Of a stretch of 64,000 nt of DNA, positions 11,512 through 21,136 are shown piece after piece; positions within the stretch are counted from its first letter, which is position 1, and every line of letters begins with the position of its first letter. The position numbers and the translations under genes are program-made. The stretch comes from Halobaculum saliterrae (GTDB lineage: Archaea > Halobacteriota > Halobacteria > Halobacteriales > Haloferacaceae): assembly GCF_009831625.1 (NCBI RefSeq), contig NZ_WUUS01000003.1, forward strand, positions 310,001-374,000, written 5' to 3'. The notes under the pieces are model-generated. The model did not search any database. It worked only from the letters and a program-made list of their open reading frames with translations, and was not told the DNA's origin.

Positions 11512-12531
11512 TCACACGTCGAGCCAGTCGCCGATCACGTCCTCGTTCGGCGAGAAGAAGTAGACGAGGTCGCCCTCGATGACCGCGTACACCTCCAGCT
11601 CGCGGTCGTGGATCACGCGCTTGCTGGAGTCGATCGCGATGTCGACGAGGTCCTCCAGCGAGTCGGTCCGGACGTACTCCTTCTCGCGTTTCGTCGGGAT
11701 CTCGCCGTTGGAGATCCACTCGTCGTAGCGGTCGCGGGCGACCTCCGTCTCGATGGCGGTCACGTCCACCAGTTCGGGCGCCCGGCGGACGAGCACGCCG
11801 GCGACGAGCAGGAGGAGCCCGACGACTCCGAGGAGACCGACGAGCCCCATGTTCGGGGAGCCGACCTCCCGGGTGGTGACGGTCCTGCTGTGCGTTCTGC
11901 TGTCCGCGATGTCGCCGTCCACCCAGTAGGCGCCGCCGGTGATCACGAGCGGCGCGCTGGTGTTTAGATCGCCCGTGTAGTCGGTGGTGTTGTACGAGAC
12001 CTCGAGGACGACGAGCACGCGGAACGTCCCGATAGGTGCGGCGGACTGCACGGTGGCGACCTGCGATCGGAACCGCGAGACGTTCAGCGTCGCGTTCCGC
12101 GTGTAGTTCCCGTCCGAGACCGTCGTCCGTCCGCCCGAGAGCACGGTGCTGTTCTCGTAGAACACCTGATCGGCACGCGTCCCCCTGACGACGACCTGCA
12201 GTCGATGTTCGACGGTGACCTCCCGGTCGCCGGGGACCGAGGCCTCGACGTGGAACGTGAGGTCCGGGCTCGCGGACGTGAAGTACACCGGCATGTTCCG
12301 GAGCCGCGTCCCGCGGTCGTACAGCGTCTCGTTGCCGGTGACGACGGCGGTGGTGTCGACGCTCGTCGCCACTTGCTGTCGGTTCGTCTCCTCGGTCACC
12401 TGCTCGGTCGGCGGCGTCAGGTACACGTAGCCGGCGCCGGCGAGCGAGGCCGCACCGACGACGACGAGCACGGCCGCGATGATCGGGCCGTTGCGGGCGA
12501 GCTGGAGCTTGAGTTGGTCTCCGGCGGACAT
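11512..12531 (-). CDS. DUF5305-type membrane protein of the surface locus
   Basis: A 339-aa protein. A single membrane helix lies near residues 15-38 (NGPIIAAVLVVVGAASLAG). An extracellular beta-rich domain of about 180 residues follows with many N-glycosylation sequons (NYT, NAT, NVS, NTT, NTS). A second helix lies near 228-250, and a cytoplasmic tail of about 90 residues holds TKREKEYVRTDSLEDLVDIA. This matches the haloarchaeal DUF5305 family as I know it. It lies beside the PKD protein and in the same locus as a SipW signal peptidase, so a role in anchoring or assembling secreted beta proteins is likely. No enzymatic motif is seen. Confidence 0.75.
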   Translation of the reverse strand: MSAGDQLKLQLARNGPIIAAVLVVVGAASLAGAGYVYLTPPTEQVTEETNRQQVATSVDTTAVVTGNETLYDRGTRLRNMPVYFTSASPDLTFHVEASVPGDREVTVEHRLQVVVRGTRADQVFYENSTVLSGGRTTVSDGNYTRNATLNVSRFRSQVATVQSAAPIGTFRVLVVLEVSYNTTDYTGDLNTSAPLVITGGAYWVDGDIADSRTHSRTVTTREVGSPNMGLVGLLGVVGLLLLVAGVLVRRAPELVDVTAIETEVARDRYDEWISNGEIPTKREKEYVRTDSLEDLVDIAIDSSKRVIHDRELEVYAVIEGDLVYFFSPNEDVIGDWLDV

Positions 12532-12688: not shown

Positions 12689-14821
12689 TCAGTCGGCCAC
12701 CTGGCCGAGCCCGACGCTCCCGTCGGCGGCCGAGTCCGGGGAGGGTACGACGACGCGGCTGACGACGTCCTCGGCGTTTCGGTCGTCGACCGCCCGGACG
12801 CGGACGGTGAACTCCGCGTGCGGCCGGACGGGGCGATCGGCGAAGCCGGGAACCAGCTCCGGCGCGGACTCGTACTCGTAGACGTCCCCGACGTCGATCC
12901 GTTTGCGCCCGAGCGTCTCGCCGGCCTCGTCGGTGATGTCGAGCTCCACCCGGTCGAGGCCCGCCCCGAGCGCCTCGATCTCCAGGCGACCGATCCGGAA
13001 CAGGTTCCGGTCGGCGTCCCAGGATACGTCCGCACAGACGATCACGTCGGGGCGGCGGCGCTGGTCGGCGAGTATCCACCGCCACAGCCGCCCCACCAGC
13101 GGCGCCGGCGAGGGGATGGCCGCAGGCAACTGGTAGTACGCGAGTACGCTGAACGCCGCCAGCGCGAGCGTGAGGACGACGAGCCACTCCAGCACGGGGA
13201 ACCCCTCGCCGACCATCGTCCCCCCGTCCCCGCCGCCGCCGCGAGCGGCGCCGCCGACGACGATCGCCGCCTCGTCGCTTCCGGTGGCGCCGTACTCGTC
13301 CTCGGCGACGGCGCGGACCGTCCACGCCCCCTCGGTGAACGTGTAGTTCACCGTCCGTCCGGTCGCCGTCGACCCGTCGGGGAGTTCCCACCGGACGGTG
13401 GCGTTGCCCACCTCGTCGGTCACGTTCGCCGTGAGCGTGACCTCCTCCCCGGGCGTGACGTTCTGCGGGCGGTCGATGGTGACGACGGGCTCGTCGTTGA
13501 CGACGATCCGGCGGGTCGTCGAGTCGCTGTCGCCGTCGGTGTCCGTCACGGTCAGCGAGACGGTGTAGATCCCGGGCTCGTCGAACGCCGTCCTGACGTT
13601 GTCGCCCTCCACGGTCGTGCCGTCCGGGAGCGTCCACGTGTAGGTGACGTCGGGACTCTGGAACACCGCGAACGTGCTGAAGCCCGGCGTCCGCGCCCGC
13701 AGGAGGACCGAGTCGTCCGTCTCGGAGACGACGGTCGTCTCGAGGAGCTGCCACCCGCGCGAGGTGAGCCGTCCGATCCGGGCGTCCTCCGGGGCGGTGT
13801 CGACGAGGCGGTCCTTCTCGACCCGCATGCTCACCGTCGCGGGGCGGTTCTCGAGCTGCCGCGGGACGGTGATGTTCATCGCCTTCACGATCCGCTCGTT
13901 CCGGTCGACCTCCCGAGTGGTTTCGACGAGCGACTCCGACCCGGTGAGTTCCACCGTCTCGTCCACCTCCGCGACGACGTCGGTCGCGGACGCGTTGGGC
14001 TGGTCGTTCTCGTCGAGGCCACCGAACGTGTTCCGGTCGCTGATGACCGCCGTCGGGCGGTCGTCCTCGGACGCGCCGCTGTCGTTCAGGCTCGCCGGGT
14101 CGACGTCCTCGGCGGACGCGTCGATCGCGGTGCCGTCGTCGTCCTCGACGGCCACGTCGTCGGCGCCGACGGGGACGTCCCCGATGGTGCCGTCGTCGGC
14201 GCCGCCGGTCTCGTTCCCGTCGTCCGAACTCGGGGCCGACCCCGTGCTCCCCGAGCCGCCCGACCCGCCCGACCCGCCCGACCCGCCGCCGGCGCCGCCC
14301 GCTTGCGTCTCGTTGATCCGGGTCTTCAGCGTGAGCGTCCGGAGGACGGTGTCGCCCGCGGCGGTGCCGCTCCCGCGGGTGTTGACGGCGATGGAGACGC
14401 TGATCTGCTCGCCCGGAGAGAGCGTGACCGCGCCCCCGGTGCCGTCGATGGCCCGCTGCCCGACGCTGAACTCGTTGACGAGTCCCCCCTCGATCGTCCG
14501 GTAGAGGGTGACGGAGTCGTTCGCGTCGTGGCTGATCCACACCGTCCGGTTCTCCGAGCCGGTGTTCTCCATGACGAACACGTCCTGAACCACGGTGAGC
14601 GCCTCGTCATTGACCCCGGGATCGGTGATGTCCACGGTGAGGTTGCCCTGATCGTCGATGTTGGCGTAGTCGCCGTTCGGCCCCTCGGCGGGCCGGAGCG
14701 TCACGCCCTCGTCGGAGAACACGTCGTCGGAGGAGCCGTCGACCACCACGGCACCCGTCGGGACGATGAGCCCGAGCAGGGTGATGACGACGAGACCGAT
14801 GACGAGTGCGGCGCGGTTCAT
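12689..14821 (-). CDS. PGF-pre-PGF and PKD domain membrane protein
   Basis: A 710-aa protein from ATG 14821 (MNRAALVIGLVVITLLGLIV, a signal segment). Residues about 25-165 form a beta domain like those of SipW-type substrates (NLTVDITDPG...VQDVFVMENTGSENRTVWIS). A Gly/Ser linker and an acidic stretch follow. A PGF-pre-PGF-like region lies near 290-400 and includes IVKAMNITVPRQLENRPATV. Then come two PKD-like domains near 410-545, a membrane helix near 565-590 and a cytoplasmic domain of about 110 residues. The cytoplasmic part after the helix is unusual for a surface adhesin and could signal inward. Transcription starts at the P1 promoter described at 14890. Confidence 0.8.
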   Translation of the reverse strand: MNRAALVIGLVVITLLGLIVPTGAVVVDGSSDDVFSDEGVTLRPAEGPNGDYANIDDQGNLTVDITDPGVNDEALTVVQDVFVMENTGSENRTVWISHDANDSVTLYRTIEGGLVNEFSVGQRAIDGTGGAVTLSPGEQISVSIAVNTRGSGTAAGDTVLRTLTLKTRINETQAGGAGGGSGGSGGSGGSGSTGSAPSSDDGNETGGADDGTIGDVPVGADDVAVEDDDGTAIDASAEDVDPASLNDSGASEDDRPTAVISDRNTFGGLDENDQPNASATDVVAEVDETVELTGSESLVETTREVDRNERIVKAMNITVPRQLENRPATVSMRVEKDRLVDTAPEDARIGRLTSRGWQLLETTVVSETDDSVLLRARTPGFSTFAVFQSPDVTYTWTLPDGTTVEGDNVRTAFDEPGIYTVSLTVTDTDGDSDSTTRRIVVNDEPVVTIDRPQNVTPGEEVTLTANVTDEVGNATVRWELPDGSTATGRTVNYTFTEGAWTVRAVAEDEYGATGSDEAAIVVGGAARGGGGDGGTMVGEGFPVLEWLVVLTLALAAFSVLAYYQLPAAIPSPAPLVGRLWRWILADQRRRPDVIVCADVSWDADRNLFRIGRLEIEALGAGLDRVELDITDEAGETLGRKRIDVGDVYEYESAPELVPGFADRPVRPHAEFTVRVRAVDDRNAEDVVSRVVVPSPDSAADGSVGLGQVAD

Positions 14822-14889: not shown

Positions 14890-14961
14890 CTTTGTATGCG
14901 CGACCTACTCGTGCGGTAGCGCTCGTTACTAATCCTGGGCGCATGAGTAGGCCCGTCTACT
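14890..14961 (-). promoter_or_regulatory. Promoter P1 with twin inverted repeats
   Basis: This lies upstream of the PKD protein and reads leftward. The TATA-like ATACAAAG is at 14890-14897. Seven bases behind it is an inverted repeat CTAC-N7-GTAG (14905-14919), and 26 bases farther a second one, AGTAG-N6-CTACT (14946-14961). Promoter P2 at 16691 has the same parts at the same spacing, so both are probably bound by one regulator. The adjacent winged-helix gene at 16908 is the obvious candidate. Confidence 0.65.
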
Positions 14962-15037
14962 ACGCCGATTTCGAGACGGGAACCGGGAGAGATCGCGAAA
15001 GGAAGATCGAATCGGGGACTGGATCTCGGGGACCAGC

Positions 15038-15127
15038 TTAGTTGCTGGCCTCCACGAAGACGGTGAAGTCCGGGAAGGTCCCACTCACCGACTCAACGCG
15101 CAGGCCGATTCTGGATCCGACGGTCAC
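15038..15127 (-). pseudogene. 3' remnant of a SipW-type secreted protein
   Basis: About 30 codons from 15127 (GTG) to the stop at 15038 read VTVGSRIGLRVESVSGTFPD and on to FTVFVEASN. This resembles the last beta strands of the two neighbouring SipW-type proteins, where a FGLxLxVxxxSxxxxFxLxIEI pattern ends the protein. There is an in-frame stop just upstream and no N-terminal part, so it looks like the tail of a third paralogue lost by deletion. It could be chance because it is so short. Confidence 0.45.
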
Positions 15128-15144
15128 GGATCAGACGCCGTGGA

Positions 15145-15653
15145 TTACGATCCGTCGTCGTCCTCGGTGTTGATCTCCAGCGTGATCGTGAAGCTGTCTC
15201 TGTCGCTGAAGCTGTCGTCCAAGATCAGACGGAGGCCGAACTCCTGGTTCTGCCCCTGCGTGAGCACCGCGTTGCCGAACGTGACGTCGGTCGGATCGAC
15301 AACCACCACGGTCACACTTCCGTTGTCACTGGTGGCCGGGACGGTCAGGTTGACGGCTTCGTTCCCGTTGTTGGTCACGTTGACGATGGGTGTCAGCACC
15401 GTGGTCGCGTTCTCGTTCAGCCCGGTGGAACTCCCGATCGGGAAGCTGATTTCGCCACTGGAGCCGCCGGATGATCCGACGACTGACGGCGCGTTGCTGG
15501 ACTCGTCGATGACGAGCAGTGCGGAACTGTCTCCGCTGACTTGTACGTTCACGTCCGGTCCGCCTGCACAGTCGTGAACGCACCGGTAGCAGTCACCAGC
15601 CCGATGGTGGCGAACACTACGAGCAGCGCGAACAGCTTTCCTTTGGGTCTCAT
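15145..15653 (-). pseudogene. SipW-type secreted protein split by a frameshift after the signal peptide
   Basis: The signal peptide is encoded from ATG 15653 (MRPKGKLFALLVVFATIGLV, then GAFTTVQADRT) and ends at a TGA at 15549. The mature domain continues in another frame from a GTG at 15552 to 15145 (VNVQVSGDSSALLVIDESSN...EFGLRLILDDSFSDRDSFTI). Alignment to the intact paralogue at 16096 shows a net two-base loss at the junction. The stop and the GTG overlap as GTGA, so the mature part could still be translated by coupling, but without its export signal. Either a recent mutation, a sequencing error or phase variation would explain it. The product would be a DUF1102/camelysin-like surface subunit. 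Confidence 0.8.
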
Positions 15654-15770
15654 TATCAATTTGCTCCTTGTACGCCTGATCGGGTTGACTTCGCTGTTTG
15701 CTCCTCGGCGCTTACTATTCTATTGAGTGGGTGACAACATAGTATGGAAGTCCTACCGAGAAGAGAGGCA

Positions 15771-15925
15771 ATTCTCATAGTTCTCAAAATTATGTTACTT
15801 AAATATATTATATAAATTTATTATTTAATCTTAGTATATAATGTACTATATTATATCCTCATATATTCTTATCGCAATTTTTCTAAACTAAACATATTTA
15901 TATAAATTGCGTGATCGCATTTGAT
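15771..15925 (+). other. Extremely AT-rich island
   Basis: About 150 bases of nearly pure A and T (runs such as ttaaatatattatataaatt) lie in a genome that is otherwise GC-rich. No ORF, tRNA or clear repeat is seen here. It sits in the 440-base gap between the split and the intact secreted-protein genes, which otherwise contains only promoter sequence for the left gene (a ttactattc at 15712 resembles the P2 core). It may be a strongly melting promoter region, a nucleosome-like boundary or a scar of foreign DNA. Confidence 0.6.
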
Positions 15926-16095
15926 CCAGGATTCCCGCAGATATTCTAATCTGATATTAACCCGTAGCCTCCCTTTTCGTCAGAATGGGCGCTACGCGCT
16001 ATTCAAAAGGCAATAGGTATATGAGTTATCGCGGACGCGGTAGAAAGTGACAAATAGAGTATATTAAAAATGCCTAGTGGTGTCGCGCGCTATGT

Positions 16096-16587
16096 TTATG
16101 AATCGTCAGTATCGTTAGCATCGATCTCAATCACGAGATCGAACGACTGACCAACACTACCTCCCGGGACGTCAAGTTCCAAACCAAATTGGGTGGTATC
16201 ACCGGGACCGAGATCGGTCGAGCTCGCGTTCACCGCGCTTGCGCTGTTCAATCCATTGGAACTGCTAACGCTGACAGTCACTGTGACGTCCTCATTTCCA
16301 TTGTTAGTGATATTCGCGACTGGTGACAGAATTGTCGTGGCGTTACTGTTCAGCCCCGTTGAGGCGTTGCCGAGATTGATGACCGCTTCCCCACCGGTAT
16401 TACTCACATTGACACCAGCTGGAGCGTCAGCTGGCGTAGATATACTAATCAGTGCATTATTGTCGCCATTCACAGTAACAGTCGCCGTCCGATCCGCCTG
16501 CACAGTCGTGAAAGCGCCGGACGCAGTCACCAGCCCGATGGCGGCGAAGACTGCGAGCAGCGCGAACAGCTTTCCTTTGGGTCTCAT
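16096..16587 (-). CDS. SipW-type secreted beta-sandwich protein (DUF1102/camelysin-like)
   Basis: A 163-aa protein from ATG 16587. The signal segment MRPKGKLFALLAVFAAIGLV is followed by ASGAFTTVQADRTATVTV. The GAFT...ADR signature immediately after the hydrophobic stretch is the mark of substrates cut by SipW-type signal peptidases in haloarchaea. The mature part is a Thr/Ser/Asn/Val-rich beta sandwich with several sequons (NVS, NAS, NAT, NIT). Related bacterial SipW substrates (TasA, camelysin) form extracellular fibres by strand exchange. A role as fibre or sheath subunit here is inference. It is the only intact member of three in this locus and is driven by promoter P2. Confidence 0.82.
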   Translation of the reverse strand: MRPKGKLFALLAVFAAIGLVTASGAFTTVQADRTATVTVNGDNNALISISTPADAPAGVNVSNTGGEAVINLGNASTGLNSNATTILSPVANITNNGNEDVTVTVSVSSSNGLNSASAVNASSTDLGPGDTTQFGLELDVPGGSVGQSFDLVIEIDANDTDDS

Positions 16588-16690
16588 GTTGTTGTGTACC
16601 TCGTGTGTGCGATCTGTGAATCGCTTGGTCGCCCGTCGAATCCCACCACGGAACCCGTCGGGGCTTACTCCAGTAATGCACCCATTCCCC

Positions 16691-16764
16691 CTTTGTATCC
16701 CCGACCTACCGAGACGGTAGCCGGCGTTACTATTCGGCAACATGCGAGTAGGCCCGCCTACTCG
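16691..16764 (-). promoter_or_regulatory. Promoter P2 with twin inverted repeats
   Basis: This promoter reads leftward toward the intact SipW-type substrate. The TATA-like ATACAAAG lies at 16691-16698. Inverted repeat 1, CTACC-N5-GGTAG, is at 16706-16720. Inverted repeat 2, CGAGTAGG-CCCG-CCTACTCG, is at 16745-16764 and is perfect. Both repeats and the spacing match P1 at 14890. The 320-base gap up to 16908 also holds the rightward promoter of the regulator gene (acttaat near 16847), so the repeats sit between divergent transcripts and may also control the regulator. Confidence 0.7.
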
Positions 16765-16907: not shown

Positions 16908-17507
16908 ATGTCGATCGAAGAAACTGATCACGTCGACGAGAGCGAGACCGCCGAGGACGATCTGTCGGAGGACACCCTCTACTCGGTGCTCTCGAACCGT
17001 CGCCGCCGGTACACCATCCACTACCTCAAGCAGCGCGAGGAGCCGGTGAGCGTGCAGGACCTCGCCGAGCGCGTCGCCGCGTGGGAGAACGACAAGCGGC
17101 CAAGCGAGATCACCTCACAAGAGCGGAAACGGGTGTACGTCTCGCTGTACCAGTCGCACCTCGACACGCTCGACGGCGAGGGGATCGTCGAGTACGACAG
17201 CGACGCCGGGACGGTCAGGCTCTCCGACCGGATGCGCGCGGTCGACATCTACCTCGAGGTCGTCCCGAAGGAGAGCGTCCCGTGGAGCCTCTACTACGCG
17301 GGGCTGTCGGCGGCGAACGCGCTCGTGCTCGCGCTGGCGTGGCTGGAGGTCCGCCCGTTCGACGCGGTGCCGGACCTGGCGTGGGGGGCGGTCGTGCTGG
17401 CGAGCTTCGCGCTGTCGGCGTTCGCGCAGCTGTACTCCAGCCGCCAGATGCGTCTCGGCGACGAGGGGCCGCCGCCGGACGTGAACCTGAGCGAAAGCGG
17501 GGCGTGA
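16908..17507 (+). CDS. Membrane-anchored winged-helix regulator (DUF7344-like)
   Basis: A 199-aa protein from ATG 16908. After an acidic leader, residues 25-115 form a winged helix typical of haloarchaeal DUF7344 proteins (TLYSVLSNRRRRYTIHYLKQ, DLAERVAAWEN, RKRVYVSLYQSHLDTLDGEG, IVEYD...GTVRLSD). Two membrane helices follow near 130-150 and 158-180. It is divergent from the SipW-type substrates and lies next to P2, so it is the prime candidate for binding the shared inverted repeats. A DNA-binding protein with two membrane helices could sense envelope state directly. Confidence 0.8.
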   Translation: MSIEETDHVDESETAEDDLSEDTLYSVLSNRRRRYTIHYLKQREEPVSVQDLAERVAAWENDKRPSEITSQERKRVYVSLYQSHLDTLDGEGIVEYDSDAGTVRLSDRMRAVDIYLEVVPKESVPWSLYYAGLSAANALVLALAWLEVRPFDAVPDLAWGAVVLASFALSAFAQLYSSRQMRLGDEGPPPDVNLSESGA

Positions 17508-17525: not shown

Positions 17526-18458
17526 TCACGGGTCCCGCGAGGGTCGAAGGCCGTCGGTGTCCGTGACGTCCAACGTGTCGTCGAACACCTGCCGGAGCGT
17601 CCGGAGCGTCTCCTCGTCGCTCGACGCCGCGTCGGCGTGGTAGTGGGCGGACCCGCCGATGGTCCGAACCCGGCTCGTCAGCGTGGTGAGAAACCGGAAC
17701 AGCCGTTCCACGTCGACGTACTCCAACAGTTCCGTGATCGAGTCGAAACACAGGACGGGGGTGAGATCGTGGTCCTCCGCCTCGCCGAGCCGCCGGCTGA
17801 TCGAGATGCCGAGCCGGGTGAGGTCCGTGGGGCTCGTGACGCCGGTCCGCACGACCCGCGTCCGCCCCCGTTCGGTCGAGATCGTCTCGGTTCTGCGGTC
17901 CCGGGTGTACCCTCCGATCCGGATGAACGCCACCTCCTCCGGGAGGTCGCCGTACCGTGTCCGCCAGTCGGCGAGCCAGTCGCTCGCGGTGTCCTCGAAC
18001 GTGACGACGACGACACTCAACTCGCGGGAGGGAGCCCGGGCGAGACACTCGAAGCAGGGGTCCGGCGAGGAGTCCGTCCCCGAGTCGACGAGCAACACGT
18101 TCCGGGCTTCCGACAGCACCTCGTCCGCGCGGGGGCGCTCGTCCGACGCCGAGAGGTCCGAGGAGAGCCCCTCCCACGAGAACAGGTCGCCGGCGTCACC
18201 GGAGCCGGCCGGTCCGTCGGCGCTCGACTCGTGGGACGAGGAGTCGGACAGGGACAGGTCCAGTCCGACCCCGTCGTCCCCGTTCCCCTCGTCCGGCTCC
18301 GCTTCCGTTCGATCCCGCGGTTCTCCGTCCGGGTCTCCGTCGGCCCGCTCGCCCGCGGCGTCGCCGCCGGCGATGCGGTCCGCGAGCTCGGCGAGCGAAC
18401 TGCGCGGCCGCTCGTCGCCTCGTTCGTCCTCCTCGTCGGCTGTAGTCTCGTCGTCCAC
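17526..18458 (-). CDS. RecA/KaiC-like domain protein (DUF7504-type)
   Basis: A 310-aa protein from a GTG at 18458. The first 110 residues are acidic and disordered. The rest resembles the haloarchaeal DUF7504 fold (ARNVLLVDSGTDSSPDPCFE, ELSVVVVTFEDTASDW, ISISRRLGEAEDHDLTPVLC, FDSITELLEYVDVERLFRFL), a RecA-like beta-alpha core. A canonical Walker A is missing, since GTDSSPD replaces GxxxxGKT, so ATP hydrolysis is doubtful. A relative with a better P-loop is encoded at 43646. Its place between the regulator and a zinc-ribbon protein suggests a regulatory or signalling role in the surface locus, unproven. Confidence 0.65.
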   Translation of the reverse strand: MDDETTADEEDERGDERPRSSLAELADRIAGGDAAGERADGDPDGEPRDRTEAEPDEGNGDDGVGLDLSLSDSSSHESSADGPAGSGDAGDLFSWEGLSSDLSASDERPRADEVLSEARNVLLVDSGTDSSPDPCFECLARAPSRELSVVVVTFEDTASDWLADWRTRYGDLPEEVAFIRIGGYTRDRRTETISTERGRTRVVRTGVTSPTDLTRLGISISRRLGEAEDHDLTPVLCFDSITELLEYVDVERLFRFLTTLTSRVRTIGGSAHYHADAASSDEETLRTLRQVFDDTLDVTDTDGLRPSRDP

Positions 18459-18544: not shown

Positions 18545-19861
18545 TTATCGCTCCCAGTCGAAGCCCTCCCCGGCCGCCTCCCCGTCGTCGTCCTCGGCCG
18601 CATCGGCGTCCGTTCCGGGCCTCGTCTCCGTCCCGTCCTCGGCGTCGCCCCGACCTCCGTCGGCGTCGGGGTTCCCGTTCCCGCCGGCACGAATGTCGTC
18701 GCTCAGGTCGATCTCGCTCGCCATCCCCGAACGGCTCTCGCTCGCCTCCGCCGTCCGTTCGTCCGACTCGACGGTGCCGTCTCCCTCGTCGATCGCCTGT
18801 GGATCGTCAGGTCGGTCCGTCCTCGTCGACCCGTCGGTCGGCCCGGCGCTCTCCCCGGCCTCGACGGGGTTCCCTCGCTCCGGATCGAGCGGCTCGCGGC
18901 GGCCCGGGTCCCGGGACGCTCGGACCGAGAGGGTGTTCGTACCGAACAGCCACGACTTCGGTTCCAGCGAGCGGAACTCGGCGCCGCAGTGCGGACAGCG
19001 GGACTCCGGGAGGACGCCGAGGTCGACCGAGCCGCCGCACTCGTCGCACTCGGCCGAGCGAACGCCCGCGGCGCTCGCGGTCCGCTTCAGCTCCGTGAGC
19101 CGTTCGTCCACGCGGCTCCGCTCCCGGCGATCTCCACGACTGCGGACCCGTTCGAGGGACCGTTCGAGGTCGTCGGTCCGGTCGAGGAGGTGGCGAAGGA
19201 TACGTTCGACGTGGCCGAAGTCCTCGGAGATCTCCGAACGGAGCGTGTCGTGGTCCTCGCGGAGACGCTGTACCTCGCGGGCGACCTCCGGAACGGCGTC
19301 CTGAAGCCGTTCGACGGCGCCCGCGTCCGGCGTCTCGCTGTCCAGCTCCTCGACACGGTTCCGAAGGCGGTCGACCGTGTCGGCCAGCGCCTCGGTTCGA
19401 TCGTCGAGCGCGTCCAGTCGGTCGTCGAGCGCCTCGAACTCGGCGTCGATCCGCTCCTCGTCCGACTCGTCGTCCACCCCATCGTCGAGCAACTCGGCGA
19501 TACGGTCGATCTTCGCGGAGATCTGCGCCAGCTCAGGGTCGGGACCCCCCTGCCGGTCCCCGTCCGGTTTCGACGGGTCAGGATCGTCGCTCCCGAGCGT
19601 CGAAACCACGTGAGGAAGCAACTCGGCGTCGGGGTCGGGTCGGTCGCGTCCCTCGCCGAGCGGCTCGGGCCGATCGCGGCCCGCGTCGCGGGAGGGGTTC
19701 TCGAACTCGTCGATCAGCCAGTAGGCGGAGAGCATCCGATCGAGGACCTCCCGCTCGGTCGTCCCCGTTTCGTCGGCGACCTCCCGGACCCACGAGCCGA
19801 GCGCCTTCTCGTCGATCCGGCCGGGCTGACTTCCCCGGTCCGGATCCCCGTTCCCACTCAT
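18545..19861 (-). CDS. Coiled-coil zinc-ribbon protein
   Basis: A 438-aa, strongly acidic protein starting MSGNGDPDRGSQPGRIDEKA at 19861. Residues about 15-55 look like a small helical DNA- or protein-binding domain (LGSWVREVADETGTTEREVL). Residues 105-260 are a long coiled coil of Leu/Glu/Asp/Arg heptads. A zinc ribbon follows near 275-300 (CDECGG...CPHCGAEF), and the last 110 residues are disordered. I do not recognise a family. It is on the same strand as the SipW peptidase and the DUF7504-type gene and probably belongs to the same unit. Confidence 0.7.
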   Translation of the reverse strand: MSGNGDPDRGSQPGRIDEKALGSWVREVADETGTTEREVLDRMLSAYWLIDEFENPSRDAGRDRPEPLGEGRDRPDPDAELLPHVVSTLGSDDPDPSKPDGDRQGGPDPELAQISAKIDRIAELLDDGVDDESDEERIDAEFEALDDRLDALDDRTEALADTVDRLRNRVEELDSETPDAGAVERLQDAVPEVAREVQRLREDHDTLRSEISEDFGHVERILRHLLDRTDDLERSLERVRSRGDRRERSRVDERLTELKRTASAAGVRSAECDECGGSVDLGVLPESRCPHCGAEFRSLEPKSWLFGTNTLSVRASRDPGRREPLDPERGNPVEAGESAGPTDGSTRTDRPDDPQAIDEGDGTVESDERTAEASESRSGMASEIDLSDDIRAGGNGNPDADGGRGDAEDGTETRPGTDADAAEDDDGEAAGEGFDWER

Positions 19862-19956: not shown

Positions 19957-21114
19957 TCACCTGAACCGACGCCTGAGACGGTCGAGCGTCGAGACGTTCG
20001 GGTTGCGCGAGTCGAGCCGGATCACGCCGGTCCCGACGATCGCGATCGCGACGAGGGCGAACAGTCCACAGACGAGCGCGTCGATCGCGAGGATCGGCGC
20101 CCACGGGTGGATCGCGTACAGCGCGTCCATGACGTCGGCCGGGAGCAGCGCGATGTACCGGTGTTCCACGAACGCGCGATCGTACACGCCGGTCCGGTCC
20201 GGGACGGAGATGGAGACGCTGACGTTCGCCTCCTCGCCGCCCGCCAGCCGGACCCGGCGCGGCTCGATACTCACCCCCTCGCTCGCCGGTTCCAGGTACA
20301 CGGCGACGGGCGTGATCCCCGGGTTCGGGATCCGATAGGTGAGCTCCTCCGTCCCGCCGACCGGGATGACGCGGACCCCGGCGGCGTCGCTCTGGGAGCT
20401 GACGACCTCGAAGGTCCGCTCGCCGCCGGTGAGGGTCATGCTCGCCGTGAGCACGAGCGCCAACACGAGCGCCAACACGAGGATCACCGTCCAGACGTTC
20501 GCTATCCCTGTCGATCTCCCGACAGCGCCGCGAACGCGCTCCCGGCTCCCCGCGCCGAGCACCGCGGTGACCGCGTACCCCGCGACGCCGACGGCGAACA
20601 GCAGATACGCCAAGCCCTGCGTACCGAGGAGCGCCCGGGTCCCGAGCGCCGCCGCCAACTGTCGCTGGGCTCCGGTGATGAGGTCGCCGATGCCCGTGAC
20701 GAGAACCCCCAGGTTCGGGATCACGACCACGTCGCCGCCGACCTGCCAGGCCACCGCGACGACCCGCGATCGCGACACCGGCGGCTCGGAGCCGTCCTGA
20801 TCGGTGACGGGGTTGGCGTCCCCCTTCGTGATGAACCCCTCCTCGGTTCGACCGACCACCCGATGGGTCGTGAGTCCGCCGCCGTCGAGCTCGCGGGCGT
20901 CGAAGGTGACGACGTCGCCCTCCTCGATCGGTCCGGCGAACGCGGGGGGGACGGCGACGAACCCGTCGCCGGGCTGGAGCGTCGGGGCCATACTGCCCGT
21001 GGAGACGTATCCGAGGAGCACGGGCTGACCCATGAGCTGCCCGACGAGCAGCAGGGCCACCACCACGAGGAGGGCTCCCCCGAGAAGGGTCCCGACGGCG
21101 CTTCGAACTCCCAT
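19957..21114 (-). CDS. SipW-type signal peptidase fused to an extracellular domain
   Basis: A 385-aa protein from ATG 21114. A membrane helix lies near residues 8-30. The S26B catalytic motifs are GYVSTGSMAPTLQPGD (nucleophile Ser), LTTHRVVGRTEEGFITKGDA (His in place of the bacterial Lys) and NPVTDQDG. Helices near 155-180 follow. The usual enzyme ends here, near residue 200. This one continues with another helix (~208-230), a beta-sandwich of about 110 residues (VSSQSDAAGVRVIPVGGTEE...NVSVSISVPDRTG) and a final membrane helix. The C-terminal domain could hold the substrate or the assembled fibre. It would mature the GAFT..ADR proteins in this locus. Confidence 0.85.
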   Translation of the reverse strand: MGVRSAVGTLLGGALLVVVALLLVGQLMGQPVLLGYVSTGSMAPTLQPGDGFVAVPPAFAGPIEEGDVVTFDARELDGGGLTTHRVVGRTEEGFITKGDANPVTDQDGSEPPVSRSRVVAVAWQVGGDVVVIPNLGVLVTGIGDLITGAQRQLAAALGTRALLGTQGLAYLLFAVGVAGYAVTAVLGAGSRERVRGAVGRSTGIANVWTVILVLALVLALVLTASMTLTGGERTFEVVSSQSDAAGVRVIPVGGTEELTYRIPNPGITPVAVYLEPASEGVSIEPRRVRLAGGEEANVSVSISVPDRTGVYDRAFVEHRYIALLPADVMDALYAIHPWAPILAIDALVCGLFALVAIAIVGTGVIRLDSRNPNVSTLDRLRRRFR

Positions 21115-21136
21115 CGCGGTGGACAACGTCGCCCGA

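Follow-up and report, generated by a model that had tools for sequence, protein, structure and literature searches.

The GvpE UAS adjoins the BRE at haloarchaeal gas-vesicle promoters and comprises two 8-nt elements with a 4-nt spacer (PMC4390858). Two further points of comparison are the haloarchaeal Tat-fimbriae (tafi; TafA/C/E/F; Galeva et al., 2025, iScience 28:111793, as cited in PMC12687288) and the TasA/SipW biofilm-fibre systems. Here we describe candidate control regions of a gene cluster in the window (the whole 64,000-nucleotide stretch of Halobaculum saliterrae DNA that was analysed), whose genes, by homology, appear fimbria-like. As in the GvpE system (PMC4390858), this is a haloarchaeal cell-structure locus with divergent promoters and a candidate regulator encoded in the cluster. 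The genes are as follows:

11512–12531, minus strand: DUF5305 protein, conserved cluster member
12689–14821, minus strand: PKD-domain/TafF-like surface protein of 710 aa (Pfam PKD), downstream of the putative promoter P1
15145–15654, minus strand: second TasA-like copy, frameshifted and split over two frames, with a stop after ADRT
16096–16587, minus strand: TasA/Taf-like secreted fimbrial subunit of 163 aa, downstream of the putative promoter P2
16908–17507, plus strand: DUF7344 protein of 199 aa (Pfam DUF7344, PF24035), candidate regulator, divergent from P2
17526–18458, minus strand: DUF7504 protein, conserved cluster member
18545–19861, minus strand: coiled-coil protein, conserved cluster member
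19957–21126, minus strand: SipW/archaeal-type signal peptidase I with a C-terminal extension, conserved cluster member (TIGR02228, at its cut-off)

We found that the 163-aa subunit matched the NCBIfam family TafE (NF052522; E=3.5e-14, 52.9 bits) and the pilin of PDB 9p0a, the latter both by profile (E=6.4e-11 over 145 positions) and as a single sequence (E=1.3e-5), and from these matches it is judged a distant relative of both. Its structural model (pLDDT 52) could be described only as beta-rich, the fold being too uncertain for a structure search. The 710-aa PKD protein in turn matched NCBIfam TafF (E=2e-19, 69.8 bits). Compared with the tafi as they are represented in the citing paper, the subunit and the PKD protein would thus be relatives of TafE and TafF, but with scores that fall far short of the family cut-offs (52.9 vs 155 and 69.8 vs 420 bits, respectively), and the signal of the subunit suggests a SipW type rather than a Tat type. 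Likeness to the TasA/SipW systems, drawn here from sequence, extends to two features: the subunit is small, secreted and probably beta-rich, with a cleavage region of the GAFTTVQADRT type, and the cluster encodes a dedicated signal peptidase of the archaeal/SipW type. The archaeal promoter architecture and the candidate regulator are different. Two observations on TasA-like genes elsewhere were also recorded. A stand-alone receiver-domain gene lies immediately upstream of a TasA-like gene at L056 (4601–4960), and G181 and G243 have similar sequence ahead of their TasA-like genes; near P2 in the window none was seen. At L116 (10021–11304, minus strand), a TasA-like signal region is followed by a long GD.D.EG...G..A.IKGD-type repeat resembling a bactofilin-like polymer.

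The sequence-only reading had proposed that P1 (14890–14961) and P2 (16691–16764), both on the minus strand, share a promoter element, and local alignment bore this out (score 44.5, compared with at most 20 for P1 against any unrelated place in the window). Each promoter had been described as a pair of twin repeats; because of the comparison with orthologous promoters given below, we replaced this parsing with one of three palindromes of about 16 bp each (IR1, IR2 and IR3), which follow the motif GKTAGG-N4-CCTAMC, with half-sites GTTAGG or GTAGG and a 4-bp spacer:

14890–14897, minus strand: P1 TATA-like box ATACAAAG, 75 bp before the ATG
14894–14909, minus strand: P1 IR3, AGTAGGTCGCGCATAC
14915–14930, minus strand: P1 IR2, AGTAACGAGCGCTACC
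14946–14961, minus strand: P1 IR1, AGTAGACGGGCCTACT
16691–16698, minus strand: P2 TATA-like box ATACAAAG, 110 bp before the ATG
16695–16710, minus strand: P2 IR3, promoter-proximal palindrome GGTAGGTCGGGGATAC, whose right half merges with the TATA-like box, register kept in 16 of 16 promoters
16716–16731, minus strand: P2 IR2, degenerate palindrome AGTAACGCCGGCTACC, 21 bp from IR3
16747–16762, minus strand: P2 IR1, distal palindrome AGTAGGCGGGCCTACT, perfect with flanks to 16764, unique in the genome together with P1

In both promoters IR1 and IR3 are spaced by 52 bp and IR2 and IR3 by 21 bp, which places IR1 and IR2 31 bp apart. The stretch CGAGTAGG-CCCG-CCTACTCG is, as claimed, a perfect palindrome, in P2. 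With the new parsing the TAGTAAC core becomes the left half of IR2, the supposed repeat CTAC-N7-GTAG dissolves into the right half of IR2 and the left half of IR3, and ATACAAAG, also listed in that reading, combines the right end of IR3 with a TATA-like box. We read ATACAAAG as such a box, with a putative core promoter role, because in all promoters it follows IR3 at a constant position and lies 69–110 bp from the start codon.

A third promoter had been placed at a ttactattc core (15707–15720), which is out of register and was rejected. The middle, frameshifted TasA-like copy has the following element upstream:

15738–15757, minus strand: P3 remnant, a decayed IR3 and TATA (GGTAGGACTTCCATACTATG), with IR1 and IR2 lost

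This remnant lies 90 bp from its ATG (91 bp in an orthologue). A dead copy fits both P3 and the frameshifted gene; alternatively, the frameshift at 15145–15654 may be a sequencing error. About 300 bp of very AT-rich DNA (~15780–16080; the window is 67% GC), possibly an insertion remnant, occupies the place where IR2 and IR1 of P3 would be expected.

The shared element, about 70 bp long, is restricted to this locus in the genome. P1 and P2 hold the only exact copies of AGTAGRCGGGCCTACT in the 3.78-Mb sequence, and across 392 genomes of the order the paired pattern as originally proposed was found only at P1, P2 and one match in a coding sequence; the paired motif is thus not widespread in unrelated promoters. 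A looser pattern for the array occurred at 13 places in the 392 genomes, 11 of them these fimbrial promoters, and its specificity rests on those 11 of 13 locations, since a reversed control gave about as many matches as the real pattern. Pattern matches in G109 (within a coding sequence and not an array promoter), G030 (at an unrelated gene) and G158 (taken as chance) were set aside. When two mismatches were allowed in a two-site pattern, control matches outnumbered real ones, which made it useless as a regulon detector. A DNA search with the 131-bp P2 region gave nothing useful in 60 relatives because conservation is confined to the bases of the palindromes.

Eleven other haloarchaeal genomes have orthologous arrays, again upstream of fimbrial genes of the TasA/Taf-like kind. 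As a single query the window's TasA protein found one relative among the genome contigs; an alignment search with the TasA-like protein and longer regions overcame this and yielded 16 promoters in 12 genomes across two families (the second represented by G264), some of them close kin, so that the effective n is below 16. Around the array the cluster of DUF7344, DUF7504, coiled-coil, S26 peptidase, DUF5305, PKD and TasA genes is kept wholly or largely, including in the other family. Promoters were chosen as belonging to orthologues of the TasA-like gene and having the IR3 and TATA register; sites upstream of IR3 are therefore unselected. Each promoter carries 2–7 sites, with a palindrome at −21/−22 from IR3 in all 16, at −52 to −54 in 12, and further sites at −42, −74, −85/86, −107, −117, −149 and −171, against a background rate of 0.19% per position for such palindromes. 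The longest array, in G014 (L093, upstream of 3699), has seven palindromes (0, −21, −53, −85, −117, −149 and −171), and that of Haloquadratum (G434) has five. Spacings in the core array are nearly always 21–22 or 31–32 bp, which correspond to two or three helical turns, and core sites fall at multiples of ~10.6 bp, on one face of the DNA. The best period among those tried was ~10.75 bp (R=0.85, strong sites), and the phasing observed at 10.25–10.5 bp was matched by none of 5000 random sets. Separately, upstream of 9170 in L097 and of 7476 in L099, we noted, at divergent second TasA-like genes, one palindrome that continues into a box of the TAA(C)TAA type, similar to IR3.

This arrangement resembles the GvpE UAS (PMC4390858) in that its half-sites come in pairs, 4 nt apart, immediately upstream of the BRE/TATA. 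GvpE promoters, however, carry one UAS of two 8-nt elements adjacent to the BRE, and GvpE is leucine-zipper-like, whereas arrays of the P1/P2 type consist of 2–7 phased palindromes, of which the final one overlaps the TATA-like box, and their candidate regulator is a predicted winged-helix protein; a single-copy UAS of the GvpE type does not describe them.

The candidate is the product of 16908–17507, the sole recognised HTH protein of the conserved cluster, which matched DUF7344 (PF24035) well above its cut-off of 27.8 (E=1.6e-31, 108.9 bits). A single-sequence model predicted three successive helices and a hairpin, forming a winged-helix domain (pLDDT 76–87 in the domain); Foldseek matches of this model to known winged-helix regulators were not significant (E>0.05). 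Two C-terminal hydrophobic helices were weakly predicted, at low confidence. We found no mention of DUF7344 in the literature searched. In a tree of 37 DUF7344 genes, the array-linked ones group together (1 change, compared with a mean of 9.6 for shuffled labels), with a weak support of 69/40. In most of the clusters seen whole a DUF7504 gene (17526–18458 in the window) adjoins the DUF7344 gene, and by analogy DUF7504 could be a partner protein of DUF7344, as GvpD is for GvpE.

A sister DUF7344 clade (clade B), also beside TasA-like genes, provided a comparison of operators. Fifteen clade B promoters carry the palindrome GTTCAAG-N5-CTTGAAC and keep both the TATA-like box (typically CTCAATACAAAG) and a phasing of ~21 bp, with sites at about −15, −36/37, −57/59 and −78. 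The two operator types separated by clade: an A score of at least 10 was reached by 16/16 clade A and 0/15 clade B promoters, and a B score of at least 9 by 13/15 clade B and 0/16 clade A promoters. One genome (G271) has both: its clade A cluster carries the array of GTTAGG type, and TTCAAG half-sites stand in corresponding places at its clade B cluster, the clade B copy being the weaker (B score 8.1). Other clade B loci examined were rearranged or had no clear array. In a third DUF7344 clade (same genus; L036, L038, L039 and L041), divergent to TasA-like genes, CTCAG-like elements precede ATACAG boxes (CAATACAGTAA), with too few promoters to define a palindrome. Most likely, and most parsimoniously given this covariation, the linked DUF7344 reads the array; it is also possible that operator and regulator co-vary through joint inheritance of the whole cluster, without binding.

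Together, these observations suggest that P1 and P2 are probably the control regions of a TasA/Taf-like fimbria cluster, in which a same-face array of palindromes would be bound cooperatively by the cluster's own DUF7344, which would set fimbrial transcription. Each promoter would be an array of ~16-bp operators on one helix face, with a weak TATA-like box (TTACAAAG/ATACAAAG) joined to the last copy; one DUF7344 dimer would occupy each palindrome, with neighbouring dimers side by side on one DNA face, and from the shared intergenic region DUF7344 may control itself too. The proposal that a specific regulator binds several sites at once gains support from the helical-step spacing in two families and the lack of spread over unrelated promoters, and the choice of the adjacent DUF7344 as that regulator from the change of operator sequence with DUF7344 clade. 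As for a dimer or tetramer bridging two repeats, the sequence-only reading appears right about multiple sites and wrong about two repeats, which are better described as a phased array of 2–7 dimer sites.

We infer binding, cooperativity and the direction of control, and for the last of these we lean somewhat towards activation over repression. The TATA-like box has a central C and no good BRE-like sequence before it, and sites lie far upstream, as in activator-dependent haloarchaeal promoters; far-upstream sites and weak core elements would favour activation by analogy with GvpE (PMC4390858). Were DUF7344 to bind the array as a repressor, IR3 would cover the TATA-like box, which it overlaps in 16/16 promoters, and the upstream sites would strengthen repression cooperatively. 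Repression in archaea commonly works by sterically blocking TBP/TFB, and we regard repression here as a real, though lesser, possibility, as the arrays reach 171 bp upstream, beyond what steric repression needs, and the core promoter elements seem weak, like those of promoters that depend on an activator.

The array could also be bound by a factor encoded elsewhere, either another DUF7344 paralogue or an unlinked regulator. There is no shortage of paralogues, with several copies in most haloarchaea searched and up to ~29 DUF7344 matches per genome, and in G014, G434, G271 and G432 the cluster's DUF7344 gene lies several kb from the array (none was found in G412 on its short contig). Yet operator type follows the clade of the cluster-linked DUF7344, and in G271 each type stands at its own cluster, which makes an unlinked binder rather unlikely.

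TTAGG-N4-CCTAA is a DtxR-type palindrome known from bacteria, and the array sites have this core in common with DtxR/IdeR/Idr boxes. The palindromes might then be DtxR/Idr/SirR-type boxes that place the fimbria genes in an iron or manganese regulon; such palindromes occur genome-wide in 10/10 genomes tested, and regulators of the SirR/DtxR family function in haloarchaeal iron homeostasis (PMC11349517). In the same genomes, however, the array sites depart from the DtxR/Idr consensus T/A-TTAGG-Y-N-N-R-CCTAA-A/T in flank and spacer. An outer flanking A was present in 10/76 array half-sites compared with 77/98 genome-wide sites (p=2e-18), 49/76 array half-sites ending in C instead, and the pyrimidine..purine spacer (Y..R) in 8/38 array sites compared with 74/98 (p=9e-9). 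In the window genome and G009 the left half has moreover drifted, the distal array palindrome reading GTAGG-N4-CCTAC, while the DtxR-like sites there stay TTAGG. These differences in flank and spacer, and the drift, make a separate regulator likely; clade B promoters use an unrelated palindrome, 21/32-bp phased arrays were found only at fimbria promoters, and we consider membership in a metal regulon improbable. DtxR-like TTAGG[Y]NN[R]CCTAAA sites are themselves often paired 34–36 bp apart (G020:C1:1888740/1888775, G271:C1:2940575/2940609, G243:C27:199791/199826 and others). Finally, P1 and P2 are paralogous, lie 1.8 kb apart and sit among adjacent genes with a decayed tandem copy, yet a recent promoter duplication of no regulatory meaning was rejected as extremely improbable, the architecture being kept in 11 other genomes of two families with the helical register held despite sequence drift.

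Cooperative control of the fimbria cluster by its DUF7344, if correct, may have a wider bearing. Tentatively, and with slightly less than even confidence, we suggest that DUF7344 could be a large family of haloarchaeal regulators, each specific to its cluster and possibly anchored in the membrane, in which every clade has a palindrome of its own; through phased operators and a common weak TATA-like box these regulators would provide separate cooperative switches for many fimbria and pilus clusters. The two operator types, clade A with GTTAGG and clade B with GTTCAAG, offer a testable protein–DNA recognition code, and, for an archaeal promoter, an array of up to seven same-face sites ending in a TATA-like box would be unusually elaborate. 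The fibre itself probably serves adhesion or biofilm formation, and the array, with a DUF7344 that changes along with it, points to DUF7344 as a candidate switch for fibre production.
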